From Trichocoleus desertorum NBK24 (GTDB lineage Bacteria > Cyanobacteriota > Cyanobacteriia > FACHB-46), in contig NZ_CP116619.1 in assembly GCF_030409055.1 (NCBI RefSeq), positions 4,069,628-4,133,627 of the forward strand: a stretch of 64,000 bases of DNA. The letters are read 5' to 3'. The position numbers and the translations under genes were made by a program. The notes under the pieces were generated by a model, which was given only the letters and a program-made list of their open reading frames with translations, was not told the DNA's origin and searched no databases. Positions 1 to 6,554 of this stretch are shown here, piece by piece (within the stretch, counting starts at the first letter, position 1; each line of letters starts with the position of its first letter).

Positions 1-287
1 AACCAATGGCGCTGCGGGTTTTTCAGCAAATTGCGGCAGAAATTCGCCAACAATGGCCCGACGTACAACGAGTCGTAATTCATCACCGCACCGGACGTTT
101 AGCGATCGGGGAGATTAGTGTACTAGTGGCAGTCGGTTGCCCCCACCGCTCAGAAGCTTTTGCTGCTTGCCAGTACGCGATCGACACCTTGAAACACAAC
201 GCCCCCATCTGGAAAAAGGAGCATTGGGCCGATGGTTCTAGCAGTTGGGTCAGTATTGGTGCTTGTGAACAGTCTGAAGGGAATTGA
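1..287 (+). CDS. moaE: Molybdopterin synthase catalytic subunit MoaE (3' part, start outside window)
   Basis: The frame is open from the left edge, so the gene begins before the window and only the last ~95 residues are visible (the family is ~150 residues). MoaE is the large subunit of molybdopterin synthase; with MoaD it puts two sulphurs into precursor Z. The visible part carries the MoaE C-terminal signature: the HHRTG-x-L-x-x-GE core, the helix with HR-EAF-AC-YAID, and K-x-APIWKKEHW, which contains the active-site lysine region. The tail after W-x-DGSSSW is short and polar. A diverged copy of the last 27 codons lies 4.4 kb downstream (4669-4752), on the far side of a foreign-looking island. 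Confidence 0.93.
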   Translation, partial: PMALRVFQQIAAEIRQQWPDVQRVVIHHRTGRLAIGEISVLVAVGCPHRSEAFAACQYAIDTLKHNAPIWKKEHWADGSSSWVSIGACEQSEGN

Positions 288-696
288 TAAGATCCCTGAA
301 ATTATTGCTTATGCAACCCTGCATCATGCGAACAGACAGAAAATTCTGCTTAGTCTTATCTGTTAGCTAAGAATAACTTTCAAGTGGGATAACTCTGAAT
401 TAAGGCTAGAATCTACTGGAGATTTCAGTCATCTTTGCTTGTATTTTGCCAAACATTATATTATGGATTTGATGCATTTGCACTGAGAAATCGTCTTATA
501 CAATTGACAGGTTGGAAGGCAAAAGATAAATGGAGATTTGCTGTCTATCTAGCTCCAAGCAGCCATTACGTATCCTAATCTAAGCACCATCTTCTGAGAT
601 GACAAAGCGAAATACTTCATGCATCCTCCACAAAAACATCAATGAATTGAATGTGGCAAATAATTTTTTGACAACAACTACCTCGAAGAAATTACT
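288..696. other. AT-rich intergenic stretch, no gene recognised
   Basis: About 410 bases between the moaE stop and the GTG start of the methylase-kinase gene. It is AT-rich, has no GCGATCGC octamer and no convincing reading frame. It presumably carries the promoter of the downstream two-gene unit, but I could not pick a clear -35/-10 pair. Confidence 0.5.
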
Positions 697-3504
697 GTGA
701 TATTACATGATGCTATATTGCAAGTTTTGCGTGAGACAGAAAGACCTTTGTCTACACGTGAAATAGCAGATTATCTCAACCGAACGGGTCTGTATACTAG
801 GGAAGATGGAACCCCTGTTGACAAAGAGCATATTCGACTTCACGTAATAAAACGCTCTGATATATTTGATAATCTTAACGGAAAAGTTGTTCTAACTTCT
901 GACACGGGTTGGAAAAGCCTGTTAACTGCCTATTGGCAACTTTTTGATGTTCTTCGAAACTATTTCAGCCAGTCTGACCTACAATTTACGCTCGCTTCTT
1001 TGCTATTTTTGAAGCGAGCTTACGACATGAATAGCTTTGAATCAACATATCCAATACACAATGTTCCGAATCTATTTTCTGATCAACACACTGCATATGC
1101 TGAGAGATTAGTTCAAGAATTAGAGGATCTTGATAGACCTAATAATTCTCCTAGTATTTTTTCTGATTGTGCTCAACTACTGAAACGGCTTAATCAAGAA
1201 GCAAGAAAAACAATTCTTAGTGTTCTTGAGAGATTCGATACATCTAAGTATAGCGAAGAAGATTTTGGACCCATATTTGATTATTTTTTACACCAAATAT
1301 CTATAGAATTTTCAAATTCAACGACACCTTACACACCTAAGTATTTACAAAACCTTATGGTGGCTATTTTAGCTCCTGAGGCGGGTAAAAGACTTTATGA
1401 TCCTACATGTGGTTCAGGCGGTCTATTGATTGAGGCGCTAAGAGCTGTTGAGGGTAAACTAGATGCAAAAGGAACTGAAATAAATCACAGAATGGTCCAG
1501 TTTGGCTATATGAATCTGGTCATGAACGGTTTTTTTAATGTAGATTTAAGGACCACAGACTTTTTGGAGGAACTACATAGTAAAAGAACATACGACTATA
1601 TCATAGGAGATTTACCTTTAAACAGTGCCTACAAGCCAGATAGATATTATGACTTGTTTTATAAATGGGGAATGCAATCCCCAAAATCCGGAAAAGGATA
1701 TAGTGCCCCTGTACTTTTTGTGCTATCTAAAATGGCAGAAGATGGCAGGGCTGTTATTACAGTTTCTGAAAATTTATTGTTCAAAGGAGGTAAGGAAAAA
1801 GAGACTAGAGAATTATTAGTCCAGCAAGACATACTGGAGTGTGTAATCAGTTTACCTCAGGGGGCATTAAAACCTTATACTGATGCTAAATGTTCAATAT
1901 TAGTACTTAACAATAGAAAGCCACTAGAGCTTAAAAATAAAATTAAATTCATAGAAAGTACACTAACTTACAGTAATTCTAAGTCAATAGATGTAGATGC
2001 CAGTGAAATTATAACTTTTTACCAAAGTAAGTCTCAAGAGGTAACTTCTACTTACAAACTTATTCAGAGAGACAAGCTTACTAAAGATTTAAACCTATCT
2101 GTAAGTACTTACAACGCTGAATCAGTCTTGACTGAGGAAATGCTTGCTTCTGGAAAAGCAATAAGGTTAGGAGAGTTGGTAGAGATTCACTCTGGAGCGA
2201 ATCCCAGGAAGGAAGACTTTGATCTAGATACTGGAATACTAGTTGTCAAAATTGAGAATCTTTCCAAAGATATTCTCGATGTTTATTTAAATTCAGAAGA
2301 GATCGGTCATAAAGTAGAAGGCTATACCCAGCATAAAAGGTCAGTAATATCACAGGAATGTATCTTAATTGCTAGGATTGGCGAACAATTAAAACCAACT
2401 TACTTTAAACCCAATAAAAAAACACCAAAGATTTTAATTCACAGTGGTTTATTTGCGCTGATACCTATTAAAAAAGGCAAAGAAATTGATCTAGAATACC
2501 TCTATTACCAGTTGCATGAGCAATTTTTCCTTGACCAAATTCAAAGGAGTAGAACAGGGGCTGTAATGCCTTCCATCAGTATTACTCGCCTCAAAGAAGT
2601 AATAATTCCATATGTGGAAATAGCTGCCCAAAAGGATTTTGTTGCATCGCAGAAAGCAAGCATTATTGCGATGGAGAGAGCAAAGACTGAAGAACGGATA
2701 AAGACATTAAATTACAAAGAGGAAATAGAGCAAAAAGAAAGCCATATAGTAAAAACTTTAGTTCATCAGTTACGTCCTACTTTACTAAGTATAGATCTGC
2801 AAGTGAGGACGTTTAAACGCATTGTATATAAATATAATTTAACTAAAAAGAGAGAATTTGATGAGAATTTTTCCCAAATAGACCCAGATTTGGAAGGACT
2901 AATTGAAAAACCTGAAAATAATACTCTTGAGGAACTGATTGAAAGATTTGAAGCAGATACACTGCATTTAAATAATGTACTGACTTCAGTCAATAAGGTG
3001 ATGAATTTCAATTTGAATTCTAGTGATAAAACGCCAACTAATATATTAAAGTTCATTCAAGACTTTGCTGTCCAGCATCAGCAAAAAGAAGCAAAAGTAT
3101 ATTCAATAGAAGTAAAGGGGGAACAAGTAACTTTGCTGATCCATCACCCTTCATTTAGAGAATTACTTGAGCAACTAATAATAAATGCTGAAAAACATGG
3201 GTTTTCACGTGCGAAAGAATCTCAAAAATTGAATAAAATCATTTTTGATATTAAGCAAGATAGAGATCGACCAGTTGCAATCATTGAGTGCCGAAATAAT
3301 GGTAATCCTTTTAAGCTTACTCAAAAGGATTATATAGAAGCATTTACAAAAAGCCAGAACAGTCAAGGATCAGGAATAGGAGGAAATTATGTAAATCGGA
3401 TAGTTAAAGCTCATGGAGGAGCTTTAAGAATCGATGAAAAATTTTCCTCTGGATTCCGGATGGTTATTGAAATTCCTTTGTATATATATAGTCAAGATGA
3501 ATAA
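697..3504 (+). CDS. Fusion: winged-helix, N6-adenine methylase-like, type I specificity-like and histidine-kinase-like protein
   Basis: 935 residues from a GTG start. Residues ~1-70 resemble a winged helix (HARE-HTH-like). Residues ~75-470 follow type I HsdM: SAM-binding motif DPTCGSGG at 235-242, later HsdM-like blocks (ending VISLPQGALKP), but the catalytic NPP[FY] position reads DLPL (305-308). Residues ~489-660 look like one target-recognition half of HsdS, ending with the G-x-x-MPSI and IIPY pattern. Then comes a helical stretch with an H-box-like VHQLRPTL (His690) and a HATPase domain with N-box N830, a G1-like NNGNPF at ~867 and GSGIGG at 891-896. No restriction subunit is nearby. The stop overlaps the next ORF by 8 bases, implying coupled translation. 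The domain parts are solid; overall function is unknown, with a modification-linked defence or signalling role inferred. The DNA is AT-rich and HIP1-free, suggesting transfer. Confidence 0.85.
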   Translation: MILHDAILQVLRETERPLSTREIADYLNRTGLYTREDGTPVDKEHIRLHVIKRSDIFDNLNGKVVLTSDTGWKSLLTAYWQLFDVLRNYFSQSDLQFTLASLLFLKRAYDMNSFESTYPIHNVPNLFSDQHTAYAERLVQELEDLDRPNNSPSIFSDCAQLLKRLNQEARKTILSVLERFDTSKYSEEDFGPIFDYFLHQISIEFSNSTTPYTPKYLQNLMVAILAPEAGKRLYDPTCGSGGLLIEALRAVEGKLDAKGTEINHRMVQFGYMNLVMNGFFNVDLRTTDFLEELHSKRTYDYIIGDLPLNSAYKPDRYYDLFYKWGMQSPKSGKGYSAPVLFVLSKMAEDGRAVITVSENLLFKGGKEKETRELLVQQDILECVISLPQGALKPYTDAKCSILVLNNRKPLELKNKIKFIESTLTYSNSKSIDVDASEIITFYQSKSQEVTSTYKLIQRDKLTKDLNLSVSTYNAESVLTEEMLASGKAIRLGELVEIHSGANPRKEDFDLDTGILVVKIENLSKDILDVYLNSEEIGHKVEGYTQHKRSVISQECILIARIGEQLKPTYFKPNKKTPKILIHSGLFALIPIKKGKEIDLEYLYYQLHEQFFLDQIQRSRTGAVMPSISITRLKEVIIPYVEIAAQKDFVASQKASIIAMERAKTEERIKTLNYKEEIEQKESHIVKTLVHQLRPTLLSIDLQVRTFKRIVYKYNLTKKREFDENFSQIDPDLEGLIEKPENNTLEELIERFEADTLHLNNVLTSVNKVMNFNLNSSDKTPTNILKFIQDFAVQHQQKEAKVYSIEVKGEQVTLLIHHPSFRELLEQLIINAEKHGFSRAKESQKLNKIIFDIKQDRDRPVAIIECRNNGNPFKLTQKDYIEAFTKSQNSQGSGIGGNYVNRIVKAHGGALRIDEKFSSGFRMVIEIPLYIYSQDE

Positions 3505-4372
3505 CATCATACTTATCGAAGATCAGGAAAAGTTTGCTAACCAGTTTGTTCGTGAAGCAAGGTCTAAAGATATCAATATTACCCATCGGAAAAGTCTCGA
3601 TGGTTTAAAAGAACTTTTACCTGTGTATGAGTATAAATATGCTGCTGTTATTCTTGATATAAAGTGTTTACTACATGATGAACAAGAGATTGAGAAGGCG
3701 GATTTTATCGGTGCCGCAATGACCTATCTTGATCAGACTGTACCAAGATTTCCGCGATTTATTCTTACTGGTGATGATACTGAATTTGAAGGTTTGAGTA
3801 AGTATTACTCCAGTGAGAAGTTATTCTTGAAAACTCCTCAGGATTTGGATAAGCTATTCGCCGATATTCAATTTTGTATTGAAAATTCGGAAGAATTAAG
3901 AATTAAGAGGGAGTATTTATCTATTTTCGAAATCTTTGAGAATGGATGGATGGATAATCAGAGCGAACAACAGATCCTGGAAATCATAAAGACAGGTTTG
4001 ACTAAGAGAAAGAGAACTCAATTCAAAGGAATTCTTGCTGATATACGTAGTATGCAAGAACGAATCTACAAAACTATTAATACTAAAAACAAGTTGGTTG
4101 TACCAGACGGAATGTTTAAGCCCAATGGAATGATTAAATTCAACAACTTAATGAAACATTTGTCTGGCAACCCTGATCAAAGTTATAAAACAACTTCTCA
4201 TGCTTACCAAAACCAAACTATCGCTCAAATCGCCAATACTATATATTGGTCATGTGGAGAATATATCCATGAAGATCCTAATAGGATATACTTCATTAGT
4301 GATAATACTATCAAGTCATTGACATATGGTCTTTTGGAATTAATGCTTTGGTCAAAGCATTACATAAAATAG
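3497..4372 (+). CDS. Receiver-domain protein with uncharacterised C-terminal domain, partner of the methylase-kinase fusion
   Basis: 291 residues from an ATG overlapping the upstream stop (ATGAATAA). An upstream in-frame ATG at 3434 would add 21 residues inside the previous gene and is less likely. The N-terminal ~125 residues form a response-regulator receiver with the key positions present: acidic pair E8/D9, phosphoacceptor D54 in VILDIK, T91 in FILTGDD and K112 in LFLKTP. The remaining ~165 residues match no output domain I know. They look mainly helical, with a C-terminal block containing YWSCGEYIHED followed by two helices, and no recognisable DNA-binding HTH. The overlap and domain types make it the likely phosphorylation partner of the upstream kinase-like domain. 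Function is inferred only. Confidence 0.82.
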   Translation: MNNIILIEDQEKFANQFVREARSKDINITHRKSLDGLKELLPVYEYKYAAVILDIKCLLHDEQEIEKADFIGAAMTYLDQTVPRFPRFILTGDDTEFEGLSKYYSSEKLFLKTPQDLDKLFADIQFCIENSEELRIKREYLSIFEIFENGWMDNQSEQQILEIIKTGLTKRKRTQFKGILADIRSMQERIYKTINTKNKLVVPDGMFKPNGMIKFNNLMKHLSGNPDQSYKTTSHAYQNQTIAQIANTIYWSCGEYIHEDPNRIYFISDNTIKSLTYGLLELMLWSKHYIK

Positions 4373-4668
4373 AAAACGAGGGTGTGTATAGGCCTAAATC
4401 CCCTTTTTTTAGATAGATAAAGTCAAGTGATTAAGAAGATCTTGAATTGTTCGTAAGGAGAGCCTGACAAGATTTGCTAAGGCTGATTTGCAAGTAATTG
4501 TCCAGTCAGATTTCTCAATCAGTTGTAGGTCACAGTTGGCTCTAAATTTGCCATAGCGTCATCGATCAAATCCATACTGTTAGGAGTCAATAACCGTATA
4601 TCTGACAGTTATCATACTTTTTAGCTAAGGTGCTCAAACCCTAGTGGTGGACACACGTTCTCTCACTG
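4373..4668. other. Island 3' flank, possible degraded coding remnant on the minus strand
   Basis: No intact gene. On the minus strand 4558 to 4409 reads ~50 codons without a stop, with protein-like composition (includes NCDLQLIEKSDWTITCKSAL), ending in TAA; an in-frame stop lies just upstream of it. It could be the C-terminal scrap of a mobile-element protein, but I cannot assign a family. Confidence 0.2.
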
Positions 4669-4752
4669 ATTTGGACAAAAGAGAATTGGGCCGATGGTTC
4701 CAGCAGCTTGGTGAGTATTGGTACTTCTGAACAAGCTGGAGCAAATTGCTGA
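4669..4752 (+). pseudogene. Duplicated 3' tail of moaE
   Basis: Twenty-seven in-frame codons plus a stop reproduce the end of the MoaE reading frame at 1-287. The peptide runs IWTKENWADGSSSLVSIGTS versus IWKKEHWADGSSSWVSIGAC, then EQAGANC and a stop. Similarity starts at the APIW position and ends at the stop codon; the bases beyond are unrelated. The copy has no start and cannot encode a working enzyme. Its place beyond the two-gene island suggests insertion at the 3' end of moaE by an element, or a recombination event, that brought its own replacement tail. Confidence 0.8.
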
Positions 4753-4977
4753 ATCTCAAGGAATGAGTCCTCTACGTAGCTGTGCTATTGCTGCTGGACA
4801 TTGCGTGCATGAAATCAACAACCCTTAATTCCTAAATTATTTGTAGCGCTCGATTACTACTCACCTGTGAATGATCGCTGTATAGCGATCGCCTCTCACT
4901 TAACTTACTGCCCTGCTGCAAACAGTTGAGCAACCGTTAGGTTCAATTCTCCAAACTATGGCGATCGCATCTGATCC

Positions 4978-5151
4978 TCACCTCGACGCTGCTAACTGCA
5001 ATAGTAGAAAGACTGCGATCGCTACATTTTCTCCTGATTCTGGTGGCACCTCGATTAGCTCTCCATTGAACAGTTCATACAGGTTCTCTGTACCGTCGTC
5101 ATAAGCTAGGTACTCTTCAAAGCTCTCAAATCTGGGTTTAGTTGAGATCAT
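4978..5151 (-). pseudogene. Truncated Uma2-family (PD-(D/E)XK nuclease-like) gene
   Basis: An ATG at 5151 opens 57 codons ending in TGA. The peptide has the N-terminal signature of Uma2-family proteins (PF05685), which are heavily expanded in cyanobacteria: FEEYLAYDDGTENLYELFNG, then ELIEVPPESGENVAIAVFLL. Family members are ~180-200 residues with catalytic acids further on, so this is only the first third. I see no continuation in the other frames downstream. It is probably a decayed or truncated copy in this rearranged flank. Confidence 0.7.
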
Positions 5152-5195
5152 GACGTTGAGGAATGGGGTGCGATCGCGTCTATTTTGCTTTCATT

Positions 5196-6335
5196 CTAAG
5201 AGCTAGAACTAGTCCCAGAATTGCATTGACGGGCCAGTACGATACAAGTGGCGATCGCAGCATTGGTTTTAATCGCTTGAGTATTGATGTGGGTGGGACT
5301 AGCTTGGTAACCCTCAGCTTGTAGGAGTTGGATCAGGCGATCGCGTGGGGGCGGGTCGATTTTGCCGCGCCGCCCGATTTCACCTAAGCCGAAAAAGTAG
5401 GGAGGTAAATTAGCCTCAACTTGCATGACTTGTAAGAGCTGCGCTCGTTCTGGCCAAGTCCACTGGTGAGCTAACTGCTCCATTCGTTGCAACATCGAGC
5501 GATCGTGCAATGACCCCAACCACATGGGGCCGCTAAGCGTCAGAGGCTCTAGTGGAGAGTGGTGATGGCAAACGGCACGGCTGAGTTGACGCCAAGATAC
5601 CGTTTCATAGTGACCGCAATGATGGCAGTAGCCCAAAAATCCATAGAGTTTTAGCTCAGAACCGGGATGAGCTAAAACTCTCACCATCACCCGATAAACC
5701 TGACCATTAAACAACGAAAAAATTGGTTGAATACTCAACCCTTTACTATTAGCTTGTTGCAGAGCACTACCAATTAACAGCCGCAATCCCTGTTCATGCA
5801 ACGCAGGATGCCAACGAGCATAAGCACCATACACTTGCAAACTTTTTTCGGGTTCATGTCCTGAACTGGTGCGCCCATCAGTGCTAGTTAAATAGAGCAA
5901 TCCACCAATTTTTGTGGCCCAGAGACTGGTGCTGAGGTAAGGGGCAGGACTACCAAAACTATCAACATCCACTAAGTCGTAATAATCTTGCCGTTGATAG
6001 CAATCAAAAAAGACCCGATTAGCATCTTGGTAAGTAATTTGATAACAGCTTGGTTCTAAGGAAGCTGATAAGTTGCGGCTTAAGGTCAAATTGATTTCAG
6101 GATTCGCATCATTAGCCCAAACCCAATCTGCTTGACTCTCCAGCACATAGCGTAGAGGCCGCACTCCGCCAGCGGTCATCGCATCAAGAACTCGCAGTCT
6201 TCCGGTGTCAGCTTTGTAAATTGCAGCGGCCAGTAGCCCTAAATCTCTGCCGACTTGGCTTTGAGACCGATAAAAAGTATTGCCGATTTGAAAGTGGACT
6301 TTACCCTCCTGCTGCCAATGGAAATCTCGATTCAT
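5196..6335 (-). CDS. trm1: tRNA (guanine26-N2)-dimethyltransferase Trm1
   Basis: 379 residues, ATG start. Trm1 transfers one or two methyl groups from SAM to G26 of tRNA; it is typical of archaea and eukaryotes and found in few bacteria, cyanobacteria among them. Seen: LDAMTAGGVRPLRY (SAM-binding motif I region), ANDANPE (motif II acidic residue) and the catalytic-region DVDSFGSPAPYL, where classical Trm1 has DPFGS. A cysteine/histidine-rich C-terminal segment (YCHHCGHYE, then AVCHHHS) matches the zinc-like region of the family. It is monocistronic in appearance, with its stop facing the Uma2 remnant. Confidence 0.88.
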   Translation of the reverse strand: MNRDFHWQQEGKVHFQIGNTFYRSQSQVGRDLGLLAAAIYKADTGRLRVLDAMTAGGVRPLRYVLESQADWVWANDANPEINLTLSRNLSASLEPSCYQITYQDANRVFFDCYQRQDYYDLVDVDSFGSPAPYLSTSLWATKIGGLLYLTSTDGRTSSGHEPEKSLQVYGAYARWHPALHEQGLRLLIGSALQQANSKGLSIQPIFSLFNGQVYRVMVRVLAHPGSELKLYGFLGYCHHCGHYETVSWRQLSRAVCHHHSPLEPLTLSGPMWLGSLHDRSMLQRMEQLAHQWTWPERAQLLQVMQVEANLPPYFFGLGEIGRRGKIDPPPRDRLIQLLQAEGYQASPTHINTQAIKTNAAIATCIVLARQCNSGTSSSS

Positions 6336-6554
6336 TTTTCTTGATTAACTTTAATTAACTAAAAAATTGATCCCAAACTAGAAAGTAGTGGTTAAACCTT
6401 TAATCCACTTTGGTTTTTGACATTTGGCGGGAATTCTAAAAATGCGAAATAGGCTTTTTCTTTCATAAATTCATTGCAGTTTGTAATATTTTTGTGAGTT
6501 GAAAGCTCAAATCTTTTAGACTAATTTTCGATTCAATGCGTAATCAAGGACACA

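Follow-up and report, generated by a model that had tools for sequence, protein, structure and literature searches.

INTRODUCTION

The closest described relatives of the elements discussed here are the fdxN element and the other XisF interruption elements of heterocyst-forming cyanobacteria. The recombinase of moaE elements belongs to the same family, scoring above the recomb_XisF cut-off. In both groups the recombinase gene resides inside the element and direct repeats bracket it, and in the interruption elements these repeats are short (main text of PMC4874684). However, interruption elements split a gene and excise during development, whereas moaE elements preserve the gene by means of a replacement tail. 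A split target gene, which membership among the interruption elements would entail, is not seen with moaE elements. A survey of XisF elements lists 22 target orthologue groups, and moaE is absent from its main text (PMC4874684).

Large serine integrases such as TP901-1, Bxb1, and phiC31 share with the moaE elements the Resolvase, Recombinase, and zinc-ribbon domains and a palindromic attP with a central dinucleotide. The phage enzymes are only ∼25% identical to the predicted moaE recombinase. Integration at moaE also differs in that a gene 3′ end is targeted and its tail swapped, in cyanobacteria. Islands at dusA and at tRNA genes depend on a different recombinase class, tyrosine rather than serine. 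As at moaE, tyrosine-integrase islands at gene ends restore their target gene and bring varied cargo to one locus (dusA, PMC4482086; tRNA genes). The dusA-type islands differ from moaE elements in their target gene, and dusA is used at its 5′ end (PMC4482086).

Here we report that mobile DNA has repeatedly used the end of cyanobacterial moaE as a place to insert, providing the gene with a replacement ending. The moaE target and the gene-preserving tail swap appear to be new; the XisF recombinase family was already known. Among open-licence papers, none was found that treats moaE as a serine recombinase target, an attachment site, or an island site, and the main text of a large recombinase survey makes no mention of moaE (PMC10083194).

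RESULTS AND DISCUSSION

Two moaE tails flank an island in the window

The DNA analyzed is a stretch of 64,000 nucleotides from Trichocoleus desertorum NBK24 (the window; genome G000). Its left end carries the following features.

1 to 287, + strand: 3′ part of moaE (molybdopterin synthase large subunit, 164 aa; gene start upstream of the window); PF02391 E=4.9e-42 and translation
207 to 287, + strand: functional moaE tail, attL-like side, with the predicted crossover GG at 211-212 (Trp codon); 80-bp repeat, GG placed as in the attP palindrome of relatives
288 to 696, no strand: left part of the island, AT-rich and non-coding, without a recombinase remnant; sequence and composition
697 to 3504, + strand: cargo, fusion of N6 DNA methylase, type I specificity domain, and HATPase_c, 935 aa; Pfam
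3497 to 4372, + strand: cargo, 291-aa protein with a receiver-like N-terminus; sequence, and gene order as on a Myroides plasmid
4373 to 4668, no strand: non-coding right part of the island, its final ∼20 bases (∼4650-4668) weakly like the left arm of the relatives' attP; arm test
4669 to 4752, + strand: decayed second copy of the moaE tail, on the attR-like side, with its GG at 4673-4674; repeat alignment and orphan-tail alignment
4883 to 5198, no strand: old flank from before the insertion, with a decayed Uma2 gene (− strand) in it; in G001 this flank directly follows the one moaE tail

A first-pass annotation had claimed that the last 27 codons of moaE (207-287) recur in diverged form 4.4 kb downstream, and this is confirmed. 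Positions 207-286 and 4669-4748 align without gaps over 80 bp with 65/80 identities (81%), and the alignment score of 85 compares with 33 for the best of 300 shuffles. The two tails start 4462 bp apart and are the sole strong direct repeat within window positions 1-6500, so that direct repeats of a gene end flank the insert. Similarity was said to stop exactly at the stop codon; it does end at about that point, but the stop of the lower copy lies one codon past the position predicted by the alignment. The lower copy reads IWTKENWADGSSSLVSIGTSEQAGANC followed by a stop codon, with substitutions at residues that are otherwise conserved across MoaE proteins. A PF02391 search finds moaE as a single complete copy in the 5.46 Mb genome, and the lower copy is not the remnant of a second full gene. 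When substitutions were counted to ask which tail is native, the sites conflicted, and the copy is not clearly nearer to the tail of either congener.

The island has a GC content of 35% vs 49% in the surrounding region. Its two genes overlap by 8 bp. The receiver-like protein has IEDQ, ILDIK, LTGDD, and KTP motifs, read by eye, and matches no Pfam family above cut-off; a single-sequence structure prediction was unusable (mean pLDDT 39). No close relative of the methylase fusion was found in 386 cyanobacterial genomes, and no relatives of the cargo were found in genome_contigs. A Myroides odoratimimus plasmid (NZ_CP037428.1, L093 9830-13457) has two genes in this same order, the second again encoding a receiver-like protein. 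The pair at 697-4372 may form a two-component-like modification module.

Congeners carry the site without the island

In the congener G001, the moaE stop is followed by ∼36 bp and then by the flank that matches the window from position 4871, and this close relative therefore has a one-copy empty site with one tail and no island. The congener G002, which is 93% identical outside the island, has one moaE tail with a Uma2 gene directly behind it (L032 8706-9269). In the window, ∼118 bp of unmatched sequence separates the lower tail from the old flank shared with G001. Because the congeners have one tail and no island, the island is an insertion in the lineage of the window. A Uma2-like gene also lies behind the orphan tail of G017 (L094 9100-9648, assigned by eye).

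The same comparison is available for two other occupied sites. G405, of the same genus as G312, supplies the empty site for that genome, and G014, a sister of G455, does so for G455. The flank behind the orphan tail of G455 matches the moaE downstream flank of G014, which identifies the 64 kb between the G455 tails as the insert. The check proposed earlier, a single-tail site in related genomes, therefore succeeds in three cases (G001, G405, and G014), and its counterpart, both tails without an insert, is seen in no relative.

Orphan moaE tails recur with different cargo

The tail peptide was searched in 386 cyanobacterial genomes, and the search was then extended to the G017 family and the G033 order. 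The first pass through the 386 genomes gave short extra moaE tails in G000, G017, G033, and G312. In all, 19 orphan tails were found in 17 cyanobacterial genomes, including 12/62 genomes with a moaE-tail match in the order of G033. In eight genomes the orphan lies on moaE's own contig, downstream of an intact moaE, with 1-64 kb of unrelated cargo between, at the following spacings.

G000: 4.4 kb
G312: 1.1 kb
G429: 9.8 kb
G455: 64 kb
G459: 1.0 kb
G474: 5.1 kb
G489: 13.5 kb
G498: 4.0 kb

Several orphans sit on contigs other than that of moaE, and their link to the gene is one that we infer. The cargo varies and includes a Fic/Doc gene (G459), ParDE (G489), and a Roc-COR leucine-rich-repeat protein (G498). 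Different cargo between two moaE tails had been named as a sign of a hotspot, and the seven genomes other than that of the window provide it over the range of 1-64 kb. Together, the empty sites and this recurrence bear out the view that the two tails are the footprint of integration into a gene 3′ end, and the 19 orphans in 17 genomes uphold moaE as an island insertion site in cyanobacteria. The Roc-COR cargo is common to G474 (L125) and G498 (L127), where it is 91% identical. ParD-like antitoxin genes are found shortly 3′ of the moaE stop in these two genomes, and ParDE is found there in G489.

Nearly all orphans begin at the Pro-Ile-Trp-Lys-Lys codons, and their homology extends from PIWKKE to about the stop codon. 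The Asn-Ala codons just upstream are kept by 0/19 aligned orphans, whereas the second Lys of PIWKKE is kept by 18/19. That the left edge hardly varies speaks for recombination at one specific point. The control was the tail of a different conserved protein, which is a somewhat less sensitive query; across 58 genomes of the order of G033 it yielded a single doubtful fragment (vs 12/62 for moaE; Fisher p 0.002 with the doubtful fragment, 0.0003 without it). Second tail DNA matches in G004 and G055 proved to be antisense rpoB and were rejected as chance, as was one viral contig with the tail pattern. Phages and plasmids gave no moaE tails besides weak matches to full moaE genes.

A XisF-family recombinase lies behind moaE in relatives

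No integrase had been seen between the two window tails, and none is found in the window; the island therefore does not encode a recombinase of its own. The window genome also has no XisF match at E<=1e-20. A counterpart of the missing enzyme is present in relatives, in which a XisF-type serine recombinase is found directly behind moaE. This gene begins at the moaE stop in G455, G499, G512, and G033, and in G455 (Leptolyngbya sp. SIOISBB, a MAG) and G499 (Phormidium tenue FACHB-1052) its start is ∼10 bp or less from the stop or overlaps it. The recombinase is intact in these two genomes (455 aa and 463 aa, respectively), truncated in G512, and a fragment in G033. The intact proteins score 466 bits (G455) and 451 bits (G499) with NCBIfam recomb_XisF, for which the cut-off is 375. 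Resolvase, Recombinase, and zinc-ribbon domains are present, and the best PDB sequence match is TP901-1 integrase. VapE-like or DUF3987 proteins are encoded beside the recombinase.

In all four genomes the moaE tail is of another type (KEWYSE/KEWYCE...). The orphan tails of G455, G499, and G033 are of the ordinary type, and none was detected for G512. At every occupied site examined, moaE remains open to a stop codon. On L132 (G499:C4), an ordinary-type orphan tail is followed on the reverse strand by a XisF fragment (∼10631-10379). This arrangement looks as if a second element had integrated, or as if tails had recombined with each other.

Sequence identity changes at a GG dinucleotide

Comparison of moaE genes locates the exchange point. 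G455 and G512 are 76% identical to the left of the GG of the Trp codon, 99% to the right of it, and 95% past the stop; G033 and G499 share 76%, 92%, and 92% over these segments, respectively. The pattern is reversed for G455 and G459, two species of one genus, with 89% identity to the left, 74% to the right, and 52% beyond. These jumps at the GG indicate that the moaE tail to its right belongs to the element.

For the three cases with both a recombinase and a detected orphan, attP was reconstructed by fusing the left flank of the orphan core with the right flank of the moaE core. Each product is an imperfect palindrome with its axis in the middle of the GG (14, 16, and 16 of 25 matches; next-best axis 10-11). 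The relatives thus have a palindromic attP centered on the dinucleotide that is common to attL and attR. In G429, which has a foreign tail and no recombinase, the symmetry axis is less clear. When left attP arms were compared across species by a leave-one-out procedure, 11/13 arms beat all 8000 random positions; an attP-like arm is absent in G312. The foreign peptide tail of MoaE would then be the translation of one arm of the attP palindrome.

Proposed mechanism and alternatives

The recombinase behind moaE, the swapped tails, and the palindromic attP in relatives identify the moaE 3′ end as the likely attachment site of XisF elements. We consider it probable that one mechanism is shared, in which this gene end is the attB for integrative elements encoding a XisF-family large serine recombinase, the presumed catalyst, and in which the window island is an old insertion of this kind. 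The circular element would carry its own last ∼27 moaE codons directly ahead of the recombinase gene. A crossover at the GG within the conserved Trp codon of CCCATCTGGAAAAAAGA would join the 5′ part of moaE to the element-borne tail, such that the protein keeps a complete C-terminus. The original tail of the host would come to lie on the opposite side of the insert, where it could decay. For the 4.4 kb island in the window, the recombinase would have been lost or would have acted in trans, and the island is most likely a decayed or immobilized relic of a moaE-targeting element.

The window island has the repeat, the boundary, and the empty site in common with the other cases. Its left attP arm is a weak match, equaled by 2.6% of random window positions with a 2-nt gap allowed. 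The moaE gene next to it ends in an ordinary-type tail rather than in the element tail that accompanies the recombinase. This is also true for most other islands that lack a recombinase, and it counts against the element model. Our guess is that the element tail was later converted by the native copy, which would leave an ordinary tail and lock the island in place.

These same characteristics make room for a route without a site-specific recombinase, by homologous or homology-facilitated illegitimate recombination. Incoming DNA with a moaE tail could have recombined within moaE on one side and formed an illegitimate junction on the other, so that the old tail stayed in place. The island without a recombinase, the weak attP arm, and an ordinary moaE tail close to that of G002 would all fit. 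However, the left edge of the copy falls at the Ile-Trp-Lys codons, as in nearly all orphans from several families, which random junctions would not produce, and a recombinase and palindromic attP sites exist at the same position in moaE. We therefore regard this route as unlikely.

It is highly improbable that the lower copy arose by local duplication of the moaE tail, or that it is what remains of a second moaE, with unrelated genes between. Two synonymous states (GAG and GCC) are common to both window tails and occur in neither congener, as a duplication would predict, but the congeners have one tail and no second moaE, the copy starts within moaE at the core that other orphans show and is directly followed by the ancestral flank, and the island differs in GC content from its surroundings. 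There is equally little to recommend a tyrosine integrase as the enzyme that targets moaE in this lineage: gene 3′ ends are classical sites for such enzymes and the window genome has seven matches, but none of these adjoins moaE, and the nearest to any moaE tail in six genomes searched is 5.7 kb from the G017 orphan. This last gene (G017:C25, L094 2645-3247) lies upstream of the orphan tail, with metabolic genes between.

Implications for MoaE and for XisF elements

The chances seem evenly divided on whether the MoaE C-terminus has been repeatedly overwritten by the att arm of a mobile element, with KEWYSE... as the translated palindrome arm. If this is true, then the long MoaE tails of other cyanobacteria would be scars that earlier integrations have left, and the recombinase gene, with its start at the moaE stop, would depend on coupling to the host gene for its expression. 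A simpler proposal, in which each long MoaE tail signals an element still in place, was rejected, since neither a recombinase nor an orphan lies near most of these loci. Long KEWY-type tails occur in other families at L040 (G053), L020 (G019), L102, L104, and L105. The tail DNA of G053 is identical to the att arm of the relatives at 25/26 positions, and its surroundings yielded neither a recombinase nor a second tail.

Cyanobacteria thus appear to have a conserved attachment site within a protein-coding gene, together with a recombinase that matches it and a predicted attP and attB. This site attracts restriction systems, toxin-antitoxin genes, and other cargo. The moaE att pair could serve as a cyanobacterial integration tool, and the type of MoaE tail could mark past integration. 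XisF recombinases, which are known from gene-interrupting nitrogen-fixation elements, are suggested to work in a gene-preserving manner as well.
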